33,220 bases of DNA, taken from the NCBI GenBank assembly GCA_030428165.1, contig JAUIBG010000005.1:1-33220 (forward strand), in the 5' to 3' direction. Below are positions 8,715-20,671 of the stretch, one piece after another (the stretch's first letter is position 1; each line of letters starts with the position of its first letter). The translations under genes and the position numbers were made by a program. Below the pieces are notes generated by a model. The model made no database searches. It had not been told where the DNA came from and worked only from the letters and a program-made list of their open reading frames with translations. Source of the DNA: Actinomycetes bacterium (GTDB taxonomy: Bacteria > Actinomycetota > Actinomycetes > Actinomycetales > Demequinaceae).

Positions 8715-11700
8715 CTACCCCTCGCGCCTGCGCCGCAGCACTGCGAGTGCCGCACCGAAGGCCATGAGCACCGCACCGAGTGCGGCGATCGGGGCAACGC
8801 CGTTGGCTCCGGTGGCGGCCAGCACCCGAGGCGTGACGTGCTCCGTGCTGCACACCTCGCACTCGCCGCCGGGTGTGCCAGGCGTCGCGACATTGCGCAG
8901 CGTGACCGGTGTCTCAGCATCGCTGACGAGCACCGAGTAGCTCACCTCCACAGACTCACCCGGCGCCACATCGGGCACCGCCCAGGTGAGCGTGTCATCT
9001 ACGAGCGTCAGTCCATCGCCTAGAGACTCGATCGTGGCGTTGTCGAGCACATCGGACAGATCGTCGGTGACCGTGGCGCCCTGCAGCAGCACCTCCGCGG
9101 TGTTGTCGACCTCGAGGGTGTAGGTGATCGTCGACCCGGGGACCACCACCGTGCCGCTCTCCGGGTCGGACGACTTGTTCAGCGTCCAGGCCGGCGTCAT
9201 GTGGGTCGTGGTGCACTCACCCTCCTCGCACACGCCGCCCGGGGGCTCCTCGTCCTCAGTCACCGTGACGACATTGGTGAGCTGCACACCCCTGGCATCG
9301 TCGTCGACGATCACCGTGTACGACAGCACCAGCTCTCCGGACTCCGCATCGAAGTCGGCACTGGCGACCACATCGTCCAGGGAGCCGACCGTCCACACGA
9401 GGTTGGTGCCGTCGAGCACCGTCGTCGTCCCGTCAGGCGCGGCCACGCTCTGGAGCTCGGCGTACGCCAGCACACCGCTCAGGTCGTCGGTGATGACGAT
9501 CTCCCCGCTCGCGCCGAGAGCCGCGACACTGAGCGTGACCGAGTACGTGATGGGCGAACCCGGCAGCACGGTAGACCCGGATTCCGGGTCAGCCGACTTC
9601 TCGACGGAGAAGTCGCCAGCGGCACGCGCCAGCACGTTGGTCAGCGAGACCCGGGGAAGGATCTGCTGCTGCTGAGCGATGATCGCCACCGAGTTCTCCT
9701 GAATCGGCGTGCCCCAGAAGTAGGAGGGATCGGCCTCGATCGGGTTCGTGACCATGATCTCCGTGATCTCGCACGAGGATCCTGCGTAGAGGTCGTACAG
9801 CTCGATGGCCGTGCCGACCTCGATCGGACCCCACGACCCGGTCTGCGGCTCCTCGCCCTCGACCTCGCATCGATAGGTGCCCTCGACCATGATCCCGGAC
9901 AGATCCGGCAGGTTCGCCACGTTGGTGCCGGGCACCACGTACTTGTCGATCGCGAACCCGCCGAACGCACGGTTGATCGTGTTGTCGACCGAGGCGAGGT
10001 GCCCCTCGGAGGAGACGACGACCTCGTCGGTCGCATCGCCATCGATCTCGACGACGCCGTACGCGCCCCAGATGTACGACTCGTTGGCGAGGCCGTTCGC
10101 GAAGCCGTCGGGACCGTCGGGAGCACCCTCGGAGACCGTGCAGGTCCAGCCGACAGGCACATCGGCGATGAGGATGACCGCGGAGGCGCCAGCGACCACG
10201 TCCACCGTGTTGACCCACGGGATCGGCGCGTCTCCCAGTTGACAGGACGCCGTGACCGGGAAGACGGTGCCGTCGACGAGTCCGTCGGCGACGCCGGAGA
10301 GGGTCTTCTCGACCATGATGTCGGCGGTGTCACGCTCGAGCGTGTTCACCACGCGCATCGTTGCCACGGCGCTCGCCGCGGTGGCGTTGTGCAGCCCGGG
10401 CGCCGCCCACTCGAACGACGTGTCGGCGCTGGGTGCCGGGATCGTCGGCTCTGTCGGCGTGCACACCGATCCGATGAGCACCTCGACCGACGATGCCGCG
10501 CTGCCGCCTGACGGTGTCAGCATCGCGAGCGTCCCGCCGTCGTTGTGGCTGGCGTCGACGCCCGACCACGTGCCGGAGACGGTCGCGTTCGGCACGTCGC
10601 CTGGACCGGTGTAGACGCACTGCCAGCCGCCCGAGTAGGTGAGGCCGCTCGAGACGACGCCGGCGTAGTCACCCACCTGCACGTCCTTGCTCAACTGAAC
10701 CGTGCCGTAGACGCGGACGATGTCATTGGTCACCGTCAGCCGCGCCGGCGTCTGCTCGGACGTCACACCGACGGGATCTGAGTAGGACACGGTGCCCCAT
10801 CCGAACGATCCGTCGGCAAGGCCTCCGGTGATCTCCCCCTCGGTCACGGCGCAGTCAGTCGTGCCGAGCGGAATGCCGGTGAACGACACTGACCCGCCGG
10901 CAGCGACATTCTTGGTGCCGTAGTTGACGCTGTCGCAGACCAGCGTCACCGGGAAAATCGCATCGGATCCGCCGGTGAAGCCCACGGTCTCGCCGGTCAG
11001 CGACTTGGACACCGTCACCGAGCCGTAGCGCTCGGAGTAGGAGTTGGTCGCGGACACGGTGACGGCCGCAGCGGACTCGTCGACGTCCTCGGTGTCAGGG
11101 TTGTCGACGGGCGTGGTGAAGGTGTAGCCATCCTCACCGGTCGTGCCGCCTGCGACTCCGTCGTACGTCACGCCATCCCAGCGCCACGGGTCGTTCGGCA
11201 CCGGCAGGTTCGCGTCGAGCTCCCACACGGTGCATGTCGAGCCCGCAGGGATGTCGTCCGGGATGGCAACCGTGTCGCCGACGCCGACCATCACGGGCGT
11301 GCCGCCCACGTTGGTGTAGACGTCGCCGGTGTCCGCGGACTCGCAACGGTAGGCGAAGGCGAACTCGGCGTCACCGGCGACGGCGGCCGCGTCGGACACC
11401 GACTTCGAGATGTTGACCGCGCCCGTCGCCCTGGACAGCGTGTTGGTGACGGTGGCGCTTCCTCCGTTCGCCGCGATCACGACGCCGCTCTGGTCGCCGC
11501 CCACCGTCGTCCAGCTGTACGACGGATCCAGGGGCGACGTCACGGTGTTCTCGGTGACGGTGCAGTCGGAGCCGATGAGGAAGTCGACATCCGGCGACAG
11601 CGTCGCCGTGCCGCCCGCGGAGCCGACGGACCAGGTGCCCGAGACGGGCGTGTCACTGCCGTACTGGCAGGAGTAGGTGCCGGAGAACGTCGCCGGCGTC

Positions 11701-14700
11701 GGTCCGGCGACGCCGGCGACCACCTTGGTGATCGTCAGCGACGCGTAGACCCGGTCGATGTCGTTGGTCACCGTGACCGCGAGCGGCGTCGCCTGGGCCG
11801 TGACCTCCACCGTCGACGACGGCGAGACGGAGTAGCCGTCCCACGCGAAGCTCTCGTCGATGAGGTAGCCGGACGGGGTGACCTCGCTGATGGTGCAGTC
11901 GGCGCCGTCCGGCAGTAGCGGCGTCACGGCCGCCACCGGCGACCCGCCGTTCCAGTCAATCGCGAAGGTGTGGTCGTAGTTGGTCCCCGAGCCGAGCGCA
12001 GGGGCGTCGCACTGCACCCGGATGTCGAACTCGGCGTCGGAGGCGACGGCCGAGGCGAACTCGTCGATCGCCTTGGTCACGGAGATCTTGCCGTAGGTGC
12101 GGATCAACTCGTTCGTCACGGTCACGGTGACCTCGTCACCGGACTGCACCACGAAGGTCGTGTCGCCGGTGCCAGCACCGCTTGGCGAGAACGAGTAGTC
12201 CACGGCGGCCCACTCGAATCCGGGCACGGCACCAGGCGTAACCTCGGTCACCGAGCACGTGACGCCGACCGGCACCCATACGGTGTCGTCCGTGCCGTCG
12301 GCGATCGAGAACCGGTAGTTGCTGTTGCCGCAGTAGATGTTGCCGGTGAAGGTCGGCGATTCGCCGAGCTCGTTGACGTCCCAGCCGAGGAGTTCCTTCT
12401 CGACCGTGATCTCCTCGGAGACGTACCGGTAGGTGTTCGTCAGATCGGCGCGCGCCTCCTGACCCGCGACGATCGGCACGTCGTTGACGGGCGGTGCAGC
12501 GCCGGTCCAGACGTACGACGCAGTCGTGAAGTCTCCCGGCTCGGTGACGGGGGAGTCCTCGGTCACGTCGCACTCGGCCGTTGCCGGGATGCCGGTGATG
12601 ACGAGGTCGGTACCGATGGAGACCGCGCCAGAGCCCGACGCGACCACATCGCCGTCGATCGAACACGTGTAGTTCGCCGTGAACTCGCGGTCGTTTCCGC
12701 CGATCCACGCGCCGGAGTGGTTGGTGGGCGGCTCCACAGTCTTGGTGATGCGAAGCGAGCCGAACTGCTGGGCGTTCGCGTTGGTGAACGTGACGAGGTT
12801 GGGGCTCTTCGGGTCGATCACCACGGTGCCGTCTGCCGGCACCGACGAGGGCGGCGACCATGTCCATGACGTGTCGACGAGCCCGGTCGACGTACCGACG
12901 TGCGCAGTGGACTCCGTCACGACGCAGCTCGCGCCCGCCGGAATGTTGGGCACGGTCACGACTGCGCCAGGGGCGCCGTTGCTGGCGGCAGGGTGGATGA
13001 CCACGCCGGTGTCGGAGATCGGATCACGACCCGGCACCGTGCAGGTGTAGTCGACGAGGAAAGACGCGGCCGTGCCGCCCTCGTATCCGTCACCGGTGAC
13101 CACCTTGGCGATGCGGAGGGTCCCAGTCTCGAACGTGTTGGTGATCTCGCAGGCCACGTCCTGACCGGCATCGACCTGGACCTCGCCGCCCACGACCTCG
13201 ACGTTGCCGCCGGTGTCGTCATCGGTGCACACCCAGATCCCGTCCACGTATCCGGACGTGGACGTCGGGTTGGTGGAGGCCTCGCCCAGGGCATAGGTGC
13301 CGGAGGCGACGGTGCCGCTCGCCCCGCCCGCTCCGGATAGGAACGTCGCGCCAGTGACGCTCTCATCGGTGCCGGTCTGGCGCGTGGCGGACAGCGTCCA
13401 GTCCGTCGCCGCCGCCGGCGTGTACTGGACTGGCATGTCGTCGGAGTCGACGTTCTTCACGAGCGTGAGACCCGAGGTCGGCGTGAAGGTGTTCGTGAAG
13501 GTACAGGTGATCCCGTCGAGGTCCGGGTCAGCCTCGCCGGGGACGCCGTCGAGCGTGATCGTGCCGGTGTCGTAGTCGTAGGCGGCACCCGACAGGACGT
13601 TGTCTCCCTCGTCGACGCACTGCATCGAGGTGAGCTCCCAGCCCGCAGGGAGCGCATCGGGATCGACCTCGGTGATGGTGACCTCGTCCGTGGTGACGTA
13701 TCCGATCGGGCCCTCGGTGTCAGGGGTGGACTCGCTGGGCAGCAGCGAGAAGGTCTCGGGGTCGTTCGAGCCGTCGACCCAGCCGGGGTTGTTCAGCTCG
13801 CTGTCCGTCTCGAAGTCGAAGCTGGGGATCGTGGCGCCCTGCAGACCGTACGGAAGGTCGACCTGCTTCTCGATGGTGACGTCGCGCACCTGCTGCAGCG
13901 AGGCATACAGGCAGCCGTACGTGATCTCGCGCTCCCAGGTGTAGAAGAAATCGTTCATCCCGAAGGTGCTGTCGACGGTGCCCGAGCAGGTGTTGCCGCT
14001 CTGGGGCCGGATGAAGCCGACGAGAACGACCGTGTACTCGATGCCAGCCTGGGTGAACGAGGTCTCCACCGTGTTGTTGAGCCACTCGAGCGTGTCGCGC
14101 GACGCCTCGTTGTTGCCGTCACCGACGTTCGGCGTCTCATTCATCTCATAGTCGAAGACCATCGTCGAGCCGTTGATGTCGAGCTCGAGCTCGCCGCGGT
14201 AGTAGTTGGAAGGCGACTGGATCGGGTTGTTGTTGTGGATGAAGCGGCCGAGGTTGAAGTAGCTGCCGACCGGCACGGCGGAGAGACCAGTCGTCGCGAC
14301 CGGCTCGAAGCCGATCGCGCTCTGCTCGTCCAGATCCAGGGAGGACGGGTCCGGGCCGGACTGGTTGATGTCAGGACACGAGCCGCCGTCGCTGCCGTGT
14401 GCAGCCCAGGCGGTCGTGCCATTCCCGACCCATGCCGTCGCCCCTCCGGGCATGTCCGACGTGGCGAGGTGATTTCCGGTGAGGGTGCCGGTGGGAGTCT
14501 CGACGAACCTGATGCATGCCTCGTCCGTCTCGATCGCGCCACCAGGGAACGCCCCGGTGTACGGCACGTGGTCGTCGAGTCTCGCCTCGAGAGTCGAGAT
14601 GCCAGGATCTGCGGCGCGCGCCGCAGGTGCCGGCGACACCACGGCAACGAAGACCGTGGCCGCCAGTAACGCGAGTACGAGGATCCAACTGATAGGCGGC

Positions 14701-14750
14701 GCCTTCACGACGGCGCGGCCGAATACAGACGTGGAAAAGAATGCAGACAT
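8715..14750 (-). CDS. Large cell-wall-anchored surface protein with tandem DUF5979-like repeats and LAATG sorting signal
   Basis: A 2011-residue secreted protein. Residues 1-46 are a signal peptide (hydrophobic 20-38, cleavage near ARA-A). Residues 48-290 resemble the choice-of-anchor-K type domain (LGRFIHNNNPI). Two prealbumin-like modules start near 290 and 428. Ten related modules of about 105-130 residues follow (starts near 543, 664, 781, 888, 1004, 1111, 1244, 1351, 1478, 1598), each opening with an I-x-K-x-V strand, holding a conserved Cys pair and ending in TNT or TNx. Two DUF11/DUF7507-like modules (DPESG, near 1713 and 1854) precede LAATG (1977-1981), a hydrophobic helix and an RRRR tail. 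LAxTG is the class E sortase signal. The ATG at 14750 has GGGGGA 9 nt upstream. The likely role is a long stalk or adhesin; the ligand is unknown. Confidence 0.88.
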   Translation of the reverse strand: MSAFFSTSVFGRAVVKAPPISWILVLALLAATVFVAVVSPAPAARAADPGISTLEARLDDHVPYTGAFPGGAIETDEACIRFVETPTGTLTGNHLATSDMPGGATAWVGNGTTAWAAHGSDGGSCPDINQSGPDPSSLDLDEQSAIGFEPVATTGLSAVPVGSYFNLGRFIHNNNPIQSPSNYYRGELELDINGSTMVFDYEMNETPNVGDGNNEASRDTLEWLNNTVETSFTQAGIEYTVVLVGFIRPQSGNTCSGTVDSTFGMNDFFYTWEREITYGCLYASLQQVRDVTIEKQVDLPYGLQGATIPSFDFETDSELNNPGWVDGSNDPETFSLLPSESTPDTEGPIGYVTTDEVTITEVDPDALPAGWELTSMQCVDEGDNVLSGAAYDYDTGTITLDGVPGEADPDLDGITCTFTNTFTPTSGLTLVKNVDSDDMPVQYTPAAATDWTLSATRQTGTDESVTGATFLSGAGGASGTVASGTYALGEASTNPTSTSGYVDGIWVCTDDDTGGNVEVVGGEVQVDAGQDVACEITNTFETGTLRIAKVVTGDGYEGGTAASFLVDYTCTVPGRDPISDTGVVIHPAASNGAPGAVVTVPNIPAGASCVVTESTAHVGTSTGLVDTSWTWSPPSSVPADGTVVIDPKSPNLVTFTNANAQQFGSLRITKTVEPPTNHSGAWIGGNDREFTANYTCSIDGDVVASGSGAVSIGTDLVITGIPATAECDVTEDSPVTEPGDFTTASYVWTGAAPPVNDVPIVAGQEARADLTNTYRYVSEEITVEKELLGWDVNELGESPTFTGNIYCGNSNYRFSIADGTDDTVWVPVGVTCSVTEVTPGAVPGFEWAAVDYSFSPSGAGTGDTTFVVQSGDEVTVTVTNELIRTYGKISVTKAIDEFASAVASDAEFDIRVQCDAPALGSGTNYDHTFAIDWNGGSPVAAVTPLLPDGADCTISEVTPSGYLIDESFAWDGYSVSPSSTVEVTAQATPLAVTVTNDIDRVYASLTITKVVAGVAGPTPATFSGTYSCQYGSDTPVSGTWSVGSAGGTATLSPDVDFLIGSDCTVTENTVTSPLDPSYSWTTVGGDQSGVVIAANGGSATVTNTLSRATGAVNISKSVSDAAAVAGDAEFAFAYRCESADTGDVYTNVGGTPVMVGVGDTVAIPDDIPAGSTCTVWELDANLPVPNDPWRWDGVTYDGVAGGTTGEDGYTFTTPVDNPDTEDVDESAAAVTVSATNSYSERYGSVTVSKSLTGETVGFTGGSDAIFPVTLVCDSVNYGTKNVAAGGSVSFTGIPLGTTDCAVTEGEITGGLADGSFGWGTVSYSDPVGVTSEQTPARLTVTNDIVRVYGTVQLSKDVQVGDYAGVVSSGLTYSGGWQCVYTGPGDVPNATVSGTWSGVDASHNDGGTLAMLTPSGGSAASSVEVLIGSVCTPTEPTIPAPSADTSFEWAAPGLHNATAASAVATMRVVNTLERDTADIMVEKTLSGVADGLVDGTVFPVTASCQLGDAPIPWVNTVDVVAGASAVILIADVPVGWTCTVSEGAPDGPDGFANGLANESYIWGAYGVVEIDGDATDEVVVSSEGHLASVDNTINRAFGGFAIDKYVVPGTNVANLPDLSGIMVEGTYRCEVEGEEPQTGSWGPIEVGTAIELYDLYAGSSCEITEIMVTNPIEADPSYFWGTPIQENSVAIIAQQQQILPRVSLTNVLARAAGDFSVEKSADPESGSTVLPGSPITYSVTLSVAALGASGEIVITDDLSGVLAYAELQSVAAPDGTTTVLDGTNLVWTVGSLDDVVASADFDAESGELVLSYTVIVDDDARGVQLTNVVTVTEDEEPPGGVCEEGECTTTHMTPAWTLNKSSDPESGTVVVPGSTITYTLEVDNTAEVLLQGATVTDDLSDVLDNATIESLGDGLTLVDDTLTWAVPDVAPGESVEVSYSVLVSDAETPVTLRNVATPGTPGGECEVCSTEHVTPRVLAATGANGVAPIAALGAVLMAFGAALAVLRRRREG

Positions 14751-16374: not shown

Positions 16375-17988
16375 TTAGGCCTCCTTCCGGAACATGCCGA
16401 GCATTCGGTAGGACACGAGGAATCCGCCGAAGATGTTGATCGAGGCGATCGCCGCGGCGATGAAGGACATCACCAGCACCGCGACGTCGGTCGAGCCCAG
16501 CTGCAGCAGCGCGCCGACGAGGATGATGCCGGAGATCGCGTTGGTCTGCGCCATCAGCGGGGTGTGGAGCGAGTGGGAGACGCCGTTGATGACGTAGAAG
16601 CCCACGACGACCGCGAGCGCGAAGATCGTGAAGTAGGACGCGAAGGACGGCGGCGAGAGCGTCACCGCCACGATGACGAGCACCGCGGCTACGGCGGCCC
16701 AGGCGAGCCTGCCCCGGACCTTGCGCTGCGACTGCAGGGCGTCGAGCCTGGCCTTCTCCTCGAGGTCGACCGCGGGCGCCGCGGGCTCGGCCTCGTGCGC
16801 GGGGGCGGCTGCCGACACCTTGACGGCGGGCGGCGGCCACATCACCGCCCCGTCGTGAGCGACCGTCATGCCGCGCACCACCTCGTCCTCGAGGTTGAGG
16901 TCGACCGCGCCGTCCTTGCCAGGCGTCAGCAGCTTCACGACGTTGACGATGTTGGTGCCGAACAGCTGGGAGGTGTGCTGCGGCATGCGGCTGGTGAGGT
17001 CGGTGTAGCCGATGATCACCACGCCGTTCTCGGTGACGATCCGCTCGCCGGGAACGGTCAGCTCGCAGTTGCCGCCGCCGGAGGCGGCGAGATCGACGAT
17101 CACGGAGCCCGGCTTCATCGCCTCGACCATGGCGGCCGTGATGGTGCGCACGGCCCGACCGCGCACAAGCGCGGTGGTGACGACGACATCGGCCTTCGCG
17201 GTCTCCTCGGCGTACATGGCCTCCGTGAGACGCTGCTGCTCGTCGGTGAGCTCCTTGGCGTAGCCGTCGGAGGAGGCCTCCTGCTGCGCCTGCTCGGCCT
17301 GCACGAAGGTCGCACCCATCGACTCGATCTGCTCCCCGGCCTCGGGACGCACGTCGAACGCACGCACCTGGGCGCCCAGGCTGGCCGCCGCGCCGATCGC
17401 CGCGAGGCCGGCGACGCCGCCGCCGATCACGAACACGTTCGCGGGGCGGGTCTTGCCGGCTGCCGTCACCTGACCGGTGAACATCCCGCCGTAGTTCTCC
17501 GCGGCCTCGATGACCGCGCGATACCCGGCGACGTTTGACATCGTGGACAGGACGTCCATCGACTGTGCGCGGGAGATGCGCGGGACGGCGTCCAGCGCCA
17601 ACCCCGTGATGCCGCGGGAGGCCAGGTCCGCGAGGTACTCAGGGCTGGAGGGCGCGCTCATCATCGAGATCAGGGTCGCGCCCGAGCGCATCAGGTCCAG
17701 CTCGTCCGGAGTGGGCGCGTTCACCGCGCACACGATGTCGGCGGACCACACCGCGGCGGCGTCGGCGACGGTTGCCCCGGCCTCCTCGTAGGCGGCGTCG
17801 GCGTAGGTCGCCTCTGCACCCGCGCCCGACTCGACGACGACCGCGTAGCCCAGCGTCACCAGCTGCGCCGCCGTGGCGGGTGTCGCGGCGACGAGCCGCT
17901 CCCCCGGCTTCGTCTCCCGCGGGACTCCGAGCGTCATCGGCTCCGGGGCCTCATCAGGGGTGGCTGCGCTGTCTTCGGGGACGGACAT
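16375..17988 (-). CDS. pntA: NAD(P) transhydrogenase alpha subunit
   Basis: PntA, 537 residues, holds the NAD(H)-binding domain I and the first membrane helices. Residues 20-55 ([25 protein letters not shown]) are the alanine-dehydrogenase/PNT N-terminal signature. The Rossmann motif [28 protein letters not shown] sits near 185-212. After a linker rich in Ala, Pro and Glu (about 400-420), four membrane helices follow. It is thus the undivided, E. coli-like alpha subunit, whereas many bacteria split it in two. The first 17 residues are a non-conserved acidic extension. The start ATG at 17988 follows GGCAGGAA. With pntB it uses proton-motive force to make NADPH from NADH. Confidence 0.95.
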
Positions 17989-18031
17989 CGTTCCTGCCTT
18001 ACGTCAACAGATATGGGGGACGACCGTCGCC

Positions 18032-18059
18032 ATCCTATTGGCGCATCGGCCGCCCCCAA
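18032..18059 (-). promoter_or_regulatory. Candidate promoter of pntAB
   Basis: TTGGGG (18054-18059) and TAGGAT (18032-18037) on the minus strand with a 16-bp spacer predict a start near 18025 and a leader of about 37 nt. Confidence 0.5.
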
Positions 18060-18100
18060 CCCGGACGAAAGGCCGGTACGGCATCGTCCCCGGGCGCACG

Positions 18101-18132
18101 AAAGCCCCGCCGAGAGGACTCTCGACGGGGCT
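18101..18132 (-). terminator. Intrinsic terminator after the 42-residue gene
   Basis: A 14-bp stem with one mismatch (18103-18116 with 18119-18132) is followed on the minus strand by TTTCGT. It sits 25 nt after the small gene stop and separates it from pntA. Confidence 0.75.
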
Positions 18133-18156
18133 CGATATGCCCGTGACGCGGGTGCG

Positions 18157-18285
18157 TCAGCGGATGTCGGTGAGGCTGGTCGCCTCCATGGCGCTCAGCA
18201 CCTCGTCGCGCAGGGCGGGGGGAAGGTGCGAGTAGTCCTGGCGAGCGTTGCCGCGCACCAGCTTGGTGAGAATCGAGTCACGCAT
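18157..18285 (-). CDS. Small 42-residue protein, family not recognised
   Basis: The protein is 42 residues, soluble, without Cys or a membrane segment: MRDSILTKLVRGNARQDYSH, then LPPALRDEVLSAMEATSLTD and IR. Helix-prone stretches at residues 2-12 and 22-36 are joined by an RQDYSHLP turn. I believe it is a real gene: the ATG at 18285 has a perfect AAGGAG 6 nt upstream, an intrinsic terminator follows the stop, and a promoter with a structured leader lies upstream. A longer frame (start 18363) would begin inside the leader hairpin and is less likely. It forms its own transcription unit between the tRNA pair and pntAB. No function can be named; a small regulatory or accessory protein is one possibility. 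Confidence 0.65.
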   Translation of the reverse strand: MRDSILTKLVRGNARQDYSHLPPALRDEVLSAMEATSLTDIR

Positions 18286-18311
18286 GTGTCTCTCCTTTGG
18301 TCGTACCGGGA

Positions 18312-18344
18312 CCGGGAGAGGGACGAGGCGTCCGGATCTCCCGG
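18312..18344 (-). ncRNA. Nested leader hairpin upstream of the 42-residue gene
   Basis: CCGGGAGA (18312-18319) pairs perfectly with TCTCCCGG (18337-18344), and inside it GGACG (18321-18325) pairs with CGTCC (18329-18333) around a 3-nt loop. It ends about 27 nt before the start codon. Confidence 0.6.
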
Positions 18345-18365
18345 TGGCCCCTCGTTGGGACAATG

Positions 18366-18414
18366 AAAAAGTCCTGCGATGACCGTTGCCGTTACGACGT
18401 TGTCATTGCAGGAC
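18366..18414 (-). terminator. Intrinsic-terminator-like hairpin in the leader (candidate attenuator)
   Basis: Minus-strand RNA would pair 18402-18414 with 18371-18383 (13-bp arms, one G-T type mismatch, 18-nt loop) directly followed by five U (18366-18370). It lies between the promoter and the coding sequence of the 42-residue gene, so it would either attenuate that gene or end a short RNA of about 50 nt. The loop contains a possible 4-codon reading frame (18406 down to 18392) without a ribosome binding site. Confidence 0.6.
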
Positions 18415-18423
18415 ACTGTGTCC
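18411..18423. promoter_or_regulatory. GGACAC-T-GTGTCC palindrome at the predicted transcription start
   Basis: A perfect 6+6 inverted repeat lies immediately downstream of the -10 element at 18424-18429, a position suited to a repressor operator. It overlaps one arm of the leader hairpin. Confidence 0.4.
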
Positions 18424-18453
18424 ACTATATCATCGCCGCGAATGTGACCGCAA
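18424..18453 (-). promoter_or_regulatory. Promoter of the small-protein leader transcript
   Basis: On the minus strand TTGCGG (18448-18453), an 18-bp spacer and TATAGT (18424-18429) predict a start near 18417. Between 18454 and 18618 I see no gene or convincing signal on either strand. Confidence 0.5.
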
Positions 18454-18618
18454 GCACCGCGTCGCGGGCGCGTCGGGGGCGCAGTGCCATCCACCGCTAG
18501 TGGTACGTCTCACACGGGAGAACGGCGGGTTTCCGTGCAGGAGGTTCCATCAATGTCCGCAGCAGGGCCCGGACGGGAACGGTGACTCCGGTGCGAGCGG
18601 GAGCGGCGCATAGTCGAT

Positions 18619-18644
18619 GGCGCCGCGGCACGAGGCGCGGCGCC
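18619..18644 (-). terminator. Hairpin after the minus-strand tRNA
   Basis: GGCGCCGCG and CGCGGCGCC form a perfect 9-bp stem with an 8-nt loop, 9 nt beyond the tRNA 3' end. There is no U-run, so it may be a processing or Rho-aided stop. Confidence 0.45.
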
Positions 18645-18652
18645 GGACTCGG

Positions 18653-18726
18653 TGGGCCAGGTGGGGCTCGAACCCACGACCGACGGATTATGAGTCCGCT
18701 GCTCTAACCGGCTGAGCTACTGGCCC
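18653..18726 (-). tRNA. tRNA with CAU anticodon, probably tRNA-Ile2 (lysidine type), alternatively elongator tRNA-Met
   Basis: A 74-nt cloverleaf with acceptor arms GGGCCAG/CTGGCCC and discriminator A. The anticodon loop is CTCATAA, with the anticodon at 18690-18692, and GGTTCGAGCC forms the T arm. CCA is not encoded. The C4-G69 and C5-G68 pairs known to favour TilS recognition are present, which supports Ile2 decoding of AUA after lysidine modification. The same loop occurs in elongator tRNA-Met, so the identity is not settled. Confidence 0.9.
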
Positions 18727-18843
18727 GCAGCGCCTCCGCGAGGGTGGCGCCGCACGCCCTCGAAGGGCGGCGGCCAGTCTACAGATCGAGGCCGCAGGGC
18801 GGCTCCGGAGCACCTGCTGATCGTGTAACATTGCTGTTCGCGA

Positions 18844-18919
18844 TCCTCCATAGCTCAATTGGCAGAGCATTCGACTGTTAATCGAAGGGTTGTTGGTTCG
18901 AGTCCAACTGGAGGAGCCA
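18844..18919 (+). tRNA. tRNA-Asn (GUU)
   Basis: A complete cloverleaf: acceptor TCCTCCA with TGGAGGA, anticodon stem TTCGA/TCGAA around CTGTTAA giving GUU, T arm GGTTCGAGTCC, discriminator G, and an encoded CCA at 18917-18919. It is divergent from the tRNA at 18653. Confidence 0.95.
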
Positions 18920-18923
18920 GACA

Positions 18924-18969
18924 ACGAGGCCCCGGATCCCGCCAGACGGCGTGGATACGGGGCCTTCGT
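18924..18969. terminator. Bidirectional terminator between tRNA-Asn and phnE
   Basis: A long imperfect hairpin: AGGCCCCG (18927-18934) pairs with CGGGGCCT (18958-18965), then ATCC with GGAT, then CGCC with GGCG. It serves the tRNA-Asn transcript on the plus strand (tail TTCGT) and probably the phn operon on the minus strand. Confidence 0.7.
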
Positions 18970-18989
18970 CGTGTCCGGAAGCGCGGCTG

Positions 18990-19874
18990 CTACAGGAGTG
19001 CCTCGGCCTCCGATGCGGTGTCCTCGTCGCGCGACTTCGCCTTCTCCCCCGCGATGATGCGGTGGCGCACGGCGCCGGAGATCGAGTCGACGATCAGCGT
19101 CACCACGACGATGACGACGAAGAGGATCCCGATGAAGTCCCACTCGCGGTAGCGGAACGCCTGGTTCAGGATCGAGCCGATGCCGCCGGCACCGATGATG
19201 CCGAGGATCGCGGACGCGCGGATGTTGATCTCGAAGCGGTACAGCCAGAAGGCGAGCACCTCGGGCAGCACCTGGGTCCAGTAGGCCCATCGGAGGATCT
19301 CGGCGCCGTTCGCGCCGACGGCCCTGGCCGACTCGACCGGACCCGGGTCGATGCCCTCGAGTGCCTCGGCGGTGAGCTTGCCGAGCGTGCCGACCGCGCC
19401 GACGCCGAGGGCGAGCGCGCCCGCCGTCGCGCCGAAGCCGAAGATCGGCAGCAGCAGGATGATCGCGAAGATGAGCTCGGGCACGGTGCGGATGATGTTG
19501 AGGATCACGCGCGTGACCTGCACCACGACAGGGTGGGCGACGTTGCGCGCGGCCAGGAAGCCCAGCGGGATCGACAGCAGCGCGCCGATCAGGGTGCCGA
19601 CCCACGCCATTGCGATCGACTCCAGCATGCCCGTGAGGGCCTGGAGCCAGTACTCGCTGTAGGGCTCGGCGAACGGGTTCTGGACCACGCCCTGCACCAT
19701 CAGGCCGAAGTACTTCCACCCTTCGGTGAAGAGCGCGCTCAGGCTCCCCCAGTCGGCGTTGGCGAAGAAGCCTCCGCCGACGACGATCGCGACGAGCGCC
19801 AGGGCGCCGAGGGTGGCGCGGAGCTTGCTCGGCTCCTGCGGCCTGGCAGTGGCCGATTCGGTCGGCAAGGTCAT
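18990..19874 (-). CDS. phnE: Phosphonate-type ABC transporter permease (PhnE), second copy
   Basis: A permease of 294 residues with about six membrane helices and a BPD_transp_1 core. The cytoplasmic loop that docks on the ATPase reads EALEGIDPGPVESARAVGANG near residues 180-200, and the PhnE-typical ends NIRASAILGIIGAGGIGS follow near 235. The ATG at 19874 overlaps the stop of the upstream permease (ATGA) with GAGGAGG 5 nt before. It is the last gene of phnD-phnC-phnE-phnE and would pair with the other permease as a heterodimer. The substrate may be a phosphonate, phosphite or related compound; no C-P lyase genes are in the window. Confidence 0.92.
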   Translation of the reverse strand: MTLPTESATARPQEPSKLRATLGALALVAIVVGGGFFANADWGSLSALFTEGWKYFGLMVQGVVQNPFAEPYSEYWLQALTGMLESIAMAWVGTLIGALLSIPLGFLAARNVAHPVVVQVTRVILNIIRTVPELIFAIILLLPIFGFGATAGALALGVGAVGTLGKLTAEALEGIDPGPVESARAVGANGAEILRWAYWTQVLPEVLAFWLYRFEINIRASAILGIIGAGGIGSILNQAFRYREWDFIGILFVVIVVVTLIVDSISGAVRHRIIAGEKAKSRDEDTASEAEALL

Positions 19875-20671
19875 ACCAGCCTCCTCCTCGCGTACTGCGA
19901 GAACTGGTCGATCAGCAGCACCACCACGAACATCGCGATCACGATCGCGGAGACGTTCTCGTAGTTGAAGCGCGCGAACTGGACCTGGATCACCTGGCCG
20001 ATGCCTCCACCGCCGGCGTATCCGATGACGACGGAGGCGCGGATGTTCAGCTCGAAGATGTACAGCGCGTACGACAGGTAGTTGGGCAGGATCTGCGGCA
20101 GCACCGCCCAGCGCGAGCGGCCCGCGGTACCGGCGCCCGCCGCATCTGCCGCCTCGAGCGGCCCGGGGTCGACCGCGTCGATCGTCTCGGAGGTGAGCTT
20201 CGCGGCGATGCCGATGTTGAACACGAACAGCGCGAGGATGCCCGCCATGGATCCCACTCCGACGATGGCCACGAAGATCAGCACATAGGCGACGTCGGGA
20301 AGCGAGCGAAGCACCGCGAGGAACCACTTGGTGGCCTGGTAGAGCCATCCCGACCGGTTCGTGACTCGCGAGGCCATGAACGCGAAGAGCAGACCGACCG
20401 CGACGCCGAAGAAGCTCGCGATGACCGCGATCGAGACAGTCTCCACCCAGGCCGACCACGTGCGGCCGAGGTAGGACCAGTTGGGGTTGAGGAACTGCTC
20501 GATGACCACCCAGCCGTTGGTGAGGTCCGTGAACAGCGGCGTCAGCGTGAAGTCGATCTGGATGGCCGCCCACACGGTGATGGCGACGACGCCGGCCAAG
20601 CCGCCAATCAGGAGGCGGCTGGGCGCCGGCTTGCGGGGTCGTGCGGTGGCCGGAGCCGCTGCGACGCTCAT
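19871..20671 (-). CDS. phnE: Phosphonate-type ABC transporter permease (PhnE), first copy
   Basis: A permease of 266 residues and the partner of the following gene, with the same core. The loop motif ETIDAVDPGPLEAADAAGA lies near residues 164-182, and NIRASVVIGYAGGGGIGQ near residue 212. A hydrophobic N-terminal helix follows a 19-residue basic leader rich in Ala, Pro and Arg. The start ATG at 20671 overlaps the phnC stop by 4 nt (ATGA). An in-frame upstream extension to 21109 is only the shadow of phnC. Two different PhnE proteins in one operon are common for this transporter family. Confidence 0.92.
   Translation of the reverse strand: MSVAAAPATARPRKPAPSRLLIGGLAGVVAITVWAAIQIDFTLTPLFTDLTNGWVVIEQFLNPNWSYLGRTWSAWVETVSIAVIASFFGVAVGLLFAFMASRVTNRSGWLYQATKWFLAVLRSLPDVAYVLIFVAIVGVGSMAGILALFVFNIGIAAKLTSETIDAVDPGPLEAADAAGAGTAGRSRWAVLPQILPNYLSYALYIFELNIRASVVIGYAGGGGIGQVIQVQFARFNYENVSAIVIAMFVVVLLIDQFSQYARRRLV

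Follow-up and report, generated by a model that had tools for sequence, protein, structure and literature searches.

A conserved leader RNA with two predicted competing folds precedes a genus-private small-protein gene in Demequina

The window, the whole 33,220-nt stretch of DNA that we analysed, belongs, as contig 30, to a 2.4-Mb genome with relatives in Demequina, and carries on its minus strand a structured leader followed by a 42-codon gene. We regard this leader as a real, conserved cis-regulatory RNA that is linked to a genus-private small protein and that we found described nowhere in the sources searched. Our preferred reading, which we hold with slightly better than even confidence, is a two-state translational leader in which the hairpin nearest to the promoter (P1) is the likely sensor. 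The unit would comprise about 320 nt, with a promoter, a two-state leader of about 135 nt, the 42-codon gene and a terminator. Comparison between genomes shows the promoter position, the ORF and the predicted hairpins P1, P2 and P3; the competing fold R, described below, is a computed structure.

The 42-codon ORF (MRDSILTKLVRGNARQDYSHLPPALRDEVLSAMEATSLTDIR, 18157-18285, minus strand, stop codon included) lies at a normal distance behind a Shine-Dalgarno AGGAG (18292-18296) and is followed by a terminator-like stem with a short U tail (18103-18132), so that the ribosome-binding site that a preliminary description had assigned to this tiny gene is present in the sequence, together with a candidate for the gene's own terminator, also described there. 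The same description had proposed conservation of the 42-residue protein as a check, and in the first search 12 of the 44 Demequina genomes indeed held homologues, compared with none of 55 other genomes. A profile search of the same 44 genomes returned the same 12 together with one weak match (G035, E 0.0044), which was dropped because it lies inside a 389-codon frame, and the sole match among 198 genomes of the order was the window's own. In total 17 small-protein genes were found, some of them in tandem; the family has the signature LP...ATSxxDIR, with the C-terminal ATSxxDIR present in most members. When the final 24 codons of all 17 genes were compared, differences at the three codon positions were 0.28, 0.26 and 0.43, with the third varying most, as is typical of coding sequence; no third-position excess was seen in the first 18 codons of the ten genes with 42 codons. 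Neither NCBIfam nor, above its cut-off, Pfam gave a match to the protein (a UBM match at E 0.0084 fell below the Pfam cut-off). A protein pattern matched 94 stretches in genome contigs, six of which encode a relative, all from Demequina or Demequinaceae, and a short pattern matched 46 stretches in viral contigs, none of which does. Among the genomes searched, the family, as judged by sequence likeness, is private to Demequina. A structural model built from eight sequences predicted two helices (residues 3-14 and 23-39) with modest confidence (mean pLDDT 67.9).

The same leader precedes 15 of the 17 small-protein genes, the other two being second genes of a pair. Because these 15 leaders were picked via the protein, their likeness to each other is independent rather than circular evidence. 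A covariance model built from them recovered a 16th leader in genome G006 (L051, E 6.6e-18), giving 16 leaders in 13 of the 44 Demequina genomes, with two copies in only three of the 13 and E values from 8.7e-37 to 6.6e-18 (15 of the 16 having built the model). One of the leaders belongs to a cultured strain, Demequina salsinemoris NBRC 105323. The 16th leader stands ahead of a 50-codon ORF (L051 1653-1805, MFLKFMTPFAG...) without the LP...ATSxxDIR signature, which by eye has only an amphipathic-looking N-terminus in common with the family. Matches in four further Demequina genomes (E 2.2e-5 to 0.05; G014 0.0027) were treated as chance since the leader's core is absent from them. Outside the genus, a search of 297 genomes of the order gave matches at E 9.9e-4 to 0.09 in 14 that belong to other genera, and none of the 11 inspected has the CCCAACGUGGGG core; among 394 genomes of the class, E 0.001 was passed by the window's own genome alone. 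These order and class searches applied stricter filters, with 8 or 10 candidates scored per genome, and may therefore have overlooked weak relatives. In three further genomes of Demequinaceae, no match was better than E 0.016. Phage and plasmid searches returned 4 and 22 records with short partial matches, those listed covering 9-25% of the query, and the core pattern occurred in five viral contigs, none with the rest of the leader.

The TTGCGG/TATAGT promoter noted earlier can be read in the window as a -10 box TATAGT (18424-18429, minus strand) and a -35-like TTGCGG (18448-18453) separated by an 18-nt spacer. The position of the -10 box is conserved: 14 of the 16 leaders have a TANNNT that begins 23-26 nt ahead of the P1 loop motif, compared with a mean of 1.8 and at most 7 in 2000 shuffles, and no conserved -35 across the leaders was evident by eye. 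A consensus scan of 17000-20000 listed neither this promoter (0 found) nor P1 as a terminator; the -10 box therefore rests on conservation instead, and P1 was missed because the scan allows loops of up to 8 nt and the P1 loop has 18. From the usual distance to a -10 box, transcription would start within a few bases of P1, which would make P1 the 5'-terminal element and the first thing transcribed.

P1 (18371-18414, minus strand) is formed by arms at 18414-18402 and 18383-18371 and is followed by a terminator-like U5 tract (18366-18370). The hairpin and the U5 tract were thus correctly described before; the stem, given as 13 bp, pairs at 12 of 13 positions, with A18407 facing C18378. The stem is kept in the folds of all 16 leaders, and over 15 leaders 94.5% of cells are paired across 10 pairs, five of them with changes on both sides. 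On its loop side, P1 displays a conserved strand (UGACAACGUCG, 18405-18395). Runs of at least four U follow P1 in 12 of the 16 leaders, with three in L006 and L051 and two in L013 and L014. Folding of the first 53 nt (P1 and U-tract) gave a z of -4.59 and that of the whole 136-nt leader -3.89 (0/200 shuffles as good in each case), and the P2/P3 stretch alone reached only -1.53 (15/200).

Two functions that the preliminary description had suggested for this region were not borne out by the relatives. The palindrome at the start site, proposed as an operator (GGACAC-A-GTGTCC, 18423-18411), is perfect (12/12 by eye) only in the window; the four relatives that share the window's promoter type (L002, L003, L006 and L010) have GAACACAGCGTCC there, with 8 of 12 positions self-complementary. 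The proposed leader peptide, an MTTS-stop frame, likewise occurs in the window only: from the equivalent triplet, the frame stops at codon 2, 9 or 23 in one leader each, runs on in 12 leaders and enters the invariant block in a phase that varies between leaders, so that no conserved upstream reading frame was found.

Downstream of P1, the leader can adopt a fold, which we call S, with two further hairpins. P2 (18323-18355, minus strand) pairs ACGAGG (18355-18350) with CCUCGU (18328-18323) and, at its apex, CCGG (18344-18341) with CCGG (18335-18332), matching the second nested hairpin that had been reported. Its outer and apical parts are paired in 99.0% and 95.0% of cells over 15 leaders, and it covaries little because it is mostly invariant. 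Taken together over these 15 leaders (L051 and the two leaderless second genes left out), P1 and P2 have 96.1% of cells paired compared with 28-43% in slid controls, and 21 double-change cells compared with 6.8 ± 2.7 after shuffling (0/500 as many); counting against this, 5/500 shuffles reach the number of double-change pairs and 74/500 the number of pair types.

The third hairpin, P3 (18290-18320, minus strand), pairs CUCUCC (18320-18315) with GGAGAG (18295-18290) and GGUC (18313-18310) with GACC (18302-18299), and so buries the Shine-Dalgarno sequence, a feature that had not been mentioned before. Pairing of P3 within each leader gave -15.39, compared with -12.09 ± 0.50 when the strands were re-paired between the 16 leaders (0/5000 as good). 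This extends to upper P3, outside the Shine-Dalgarno core (-5.38 compared with -3.25 ± 0.42; 1/10000 as good), and, for that same part, to a subset of 13 leaders from which L003, L009 and the second L011 leader were dropped as near relatives (0/10000; Shine-Dalgarno of L006 set by hand). When the leaders are aligned with MAFFT, covariation at the base of P3 is weak (8/500 shuffles for the score, 281/500 for double-change pairs), since this base is fixed by the Shine-Dalgarno sequence, which hardly varies. Covariation in homologous leaders, the comparison by which a structured leader had been proposed to be checked, was thus detected for both P1 and P3. In fold S, at least three of four Shine-Dalgarno bases pair with the anti-Shine-Dalgarno strand in 14 of the 16 leaders, with GGAA taken as Shine-Dalgarno in L006 and L014; the L014 value of 0/4 understates fold S, as the GGAG just after GGAA pairs with CUCC there. 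After the anti-Shine-Dalgarno strand, CGG is found in all 16 leaders.

The most conserved block of the leader, GUCCCAACGUGGGGC, is only partly used by P2 and can close on itself as hairpin A (GUCCC-AACGA-GGGGC, 18347-18361, minus strand; predicted), a block that is almost invariant in the family. In the resulting fold R, hairpin A would use up the 5' arm of P2, and the freed strand ACCGGGAG would then pair with the anti-Shine-Dalgarno strand CUCCCGGU into hairpin B (18311-18345, minus strand), made up of an outer part (18345-18337 with 18319-18311) and an inner part (GGACG 18333-18329 with CGUCC 18325-18321). Hairpin B takes the anti-Shine-Dalgarno strand, and in none of the 16 leaders is a Shine-Dalgarno base paired with that strand in fold R. 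A pseudoknot form of the alternative pairing, considered first, was set aside, as the nested hairpins A and B account for the same conservation.

Hairpin A is paired in 97.8% of cells over 15 leaders with one compensatory change, L012 keeping it through a change from G-C to A-U. In shuffles that keep fold S, the composition and the Shine-Dalgarno pairs, hairpin A (-7.56) compared with -1.58 ± 0.46 and outer B (-14.19) with -5.75 ± 0.76, in both cases with 0/400 as good, a count that is not a probability as the leaders are related. The mean unpaired probability of the Shine-Dalgarno sequence, with GGAA again taken in L006 and L014, rises from 0.20 in S to 0.49 in R and is higher in R in 15 of the 16 leaders, the exception being L007, where it is less open in R than in S. 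The Shine-Dalgarno sequence finds other partners in R, and just 3 of the 16 minimum-energy folds for R leave all four of its bases unpaired. Fold R lies on average 4.1 kcal/mol above S (range -2.5 to +16.6, the latter in L005) and is more stable than S in 4 of the 16 leaders, including the window (-0.9); fold S may be the default, but 'off by default' is not general. Covariation for fold R is thin: outer B covaries weakly (211/5000 re-pairings as good), with CCGG repeats favouring chance pairing, and for hairpin A and inner B, nearly invariant in the 15 aligned leaders, 25/500 shuffles reach the covariation score and 472/500 the number of pair types.

These structures suggest how the leader might work. 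With P2 and P3 formed, P3 would bury the Shine-Dalgarno sequence and translation would be low; with hairpins A and B formed, the ribosome-binding site would be loosened, so that the switch presumably runs from S to R when it turns the gene on. P1, with its conserved loop, would be the likely sensing part, responding to a trigger that may be a metabolite, an ion, a protein or an RNA. The P1 loop strand (GRCAA) can pair with a UUGUC overlapping hairpin A (162/5000 re-pairings as good), which would plausibly connect P1 to the switch but has weak support, and occupation of P1 could decide through this pairing whether hairpin A forms. We read the leader as working like a riboswitch, with ligand binding putative. 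It has the structured, covarying 5' UTR of such elements; the two folds computed in all 16 leaders may alter access to an expression signal, with the partial opening given above and weak covariation of hairpin B.

Termination after P1 may add to translational control, and taken as the main output it offers a different explanation, which we consider possible though clearly not probable. Here, P1 and its U-tract would act as a transcription attenuator that ends many transcripts at about 50 nt, a factor bound to the loop would let the polymerase through, and the short RNA may act in trans; such a mechanism is compatible with a translational switch. A stem and U-tract before the gene, as in an intrinsic-terminator attenuator, are present (U5 in the window), the P1 stem recurs in all 16 leaders with at least four U in 12, and by eye the U-tracts look at least as good as the tails that follow the terminator-like stems downstream of the genes. 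However, with P1 transcribed first, as the promoter position implies, there would be no RNA upstream from which a classical antiterminator could form before the terminator. Moreover, the 18-nt loop of the window is large for an intrinsic terminator, the U-tract is short in L006, L013, L014 and L051, and an attenuator leaves the conserved P2 and P3 unexplained. Translational output through the buried ribosome-binding site is therefore better supported than attenuation at P1.

A simpler role, in which heat melts P3 as in an RNA thermometer or P1 merely protects the 5' end as a stabilising structure without any ligand, appears improbable to us: it agrees with the burial of the ribosome-binding site in P3 and with a 5'-terminal P1, but gives no reason why GUCCCAACGUGGGG is nearly invariant, why the P1 loop strand is conserved or why every leader has CGG after its anti-Shine-Dalgarno strand. 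Slightly less probable again is feedback by the small protein, which would bind its own leader and shut off translation. Leader and protein do occur together in 15 genes, but the G006 leader precedes an ORF outside the family, and the window protein is not basic (6 K/R and 6 D/E, counted from the sequence). A messenger resembling type I toxin-antitoxin systems, with a translationally silent leader ahead of a harmful peptide that an antisense RNA keeps under control, would suit the buried ribosome-binding site, the tiny gene and the patchy, partly duplicated units in different places, but is very improbable, as the peptide has by eye no hydrophobic membrane span and is modelled as two helices; the consensus scan, which also missed the sense promoter, found no antisense promoters.

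The two-state translational reading has partial counterparts among known RNAs. The earlier statement that the element fits no recognised riboswitch or leader agrees with Rfam, which at gathering score gave only tRNAs in the window and nothing in the 13 loci; up to E 5, the one match in 18150-18470 was weak and on the other strand (Ms_IGR-8). Translational T-box leaders exist, as in actinobacterial ileS; here, Rfam gave no T-box match, and the ORF behind the leader, outside Pfam and NCBIfam as stated above, is not recognisable as the amino-acid-related gene expected after a T-box. In translational riboswitch platforms, the anti-Shine-Dalgarno strand is shared by the sequestering hairpin and an alternative partner, which is also how P3 and hairpin B would share it in Demequina, here in one genus only and with a putative aptamer.

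Nearest in design is the Downstream-peptide RNA of picocyanobacteria, also known as the type 2 glutamine riboswitch, a clade-restricted leader before ORFs of 17-100 residues outside known families that is better conserved than the ORF (PMC2864571; PMC6316151) and, according to the review, always present in several copies. The Demequina leader is likewise clade-private and stands before small orphan ORFs, but it belongs to another phylum, has no match to the Rfam model of that riboswitch and, as noted, seldom occurs twice in a genome. To our knowledge, the cyanobacterial RNA has no counterpart to a 5'-terminal P1 with a U-tract. The rpfB RNA switch of Mycobacterium tuberculosis, a riboswitch candidate, has a terminator hairpin, two competing folds and a narrow distribution (PMC6009663), and so shows that narrowly distributed two-fold leaders with a terminator occur in actinobacteria. 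The Demequina leader shares the actinobacterial host, the terminator-like hairpin, two competing predicted folds and the narrow distribution; in contrast, the rpfB switch is transcriptional and precedes a three-gene operon, whereas the Demequina leader stands before a tiny ORF and its most evident output is at the level of translation.

By analogy with the cyanobacterial glutamine riboswitch and its glutamine synthetase inactivating factor, we tentatively put forward a more specific idea, at less than even confidence: the leader could be an undescribed, Demequina-private class of ligand-sensing riboswitch, with P1 as aptamer, that switches on a 42-residue inhibitor or adaptor of an enzyme or membrane complex. 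A literature search on Demequina with small RNA or riboswitch found no publication, and Demequina transcriptome papers, among the matches listed, concerned gut or soil communities and the like. The element would add an RNA family absent from Rfam and a small-protein family absent from Pfam and NCBIfam; should a ligand be identified, the small protein that it controls would be a clue to a physiological response of Demequina. With a candidate sensor made up of the first ~45 nt of the RNA, already folded while the polymerase has barely left the promoter, the switch would be a useful test case for co-transcriptional sensing.

The chromosomal places of the units differ between genomes: among 30 pntA loci fetched (one each for 30 of the 44 genomes), the core was found in the window's alone, and the scanned neighbours of the units showed no common function. 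Five of 15 loci (L082, L088, L092, L093 and L094) have a DUF222-HNH endonuclease gene at a distance of 215-954 bp from the leader, in varied orientation; the fetched flanks (up to 8 kb) of the 10 others contain none, and genomes hold only 0-10 such genes. This looks like an enrichment and perhaps marks an insertion hot spot common to the units; one genome contributes two of the five loci. At L011 (G018:C1:946294-946901), two units stand in tandem, each with its own leader, the downstream one without a TANNNT box at the usual place. In four genomes, the first gene is followed, 2 nt beyond its stop codon, by another tiny ORF (L002 1626-1745, L003 1623-1733, L006 1626-1760 and L010 1614-1748, the last on a reverse-strand reading). 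Its consensus, MxxxxRxGSCRGxxLxGSVxxxPxGxRQGCTA, has two conserved cysteines, third codon positions are the most variable, and across the 44 Demequina genomes strong matches occurred in these four only, with two more at E 0.002-0.003. Elsewhere in the window, the minus strand at 8715-14750 encodes a protein of 2011 residues in which eight stretches match DUF5979 and one region DUF7927.
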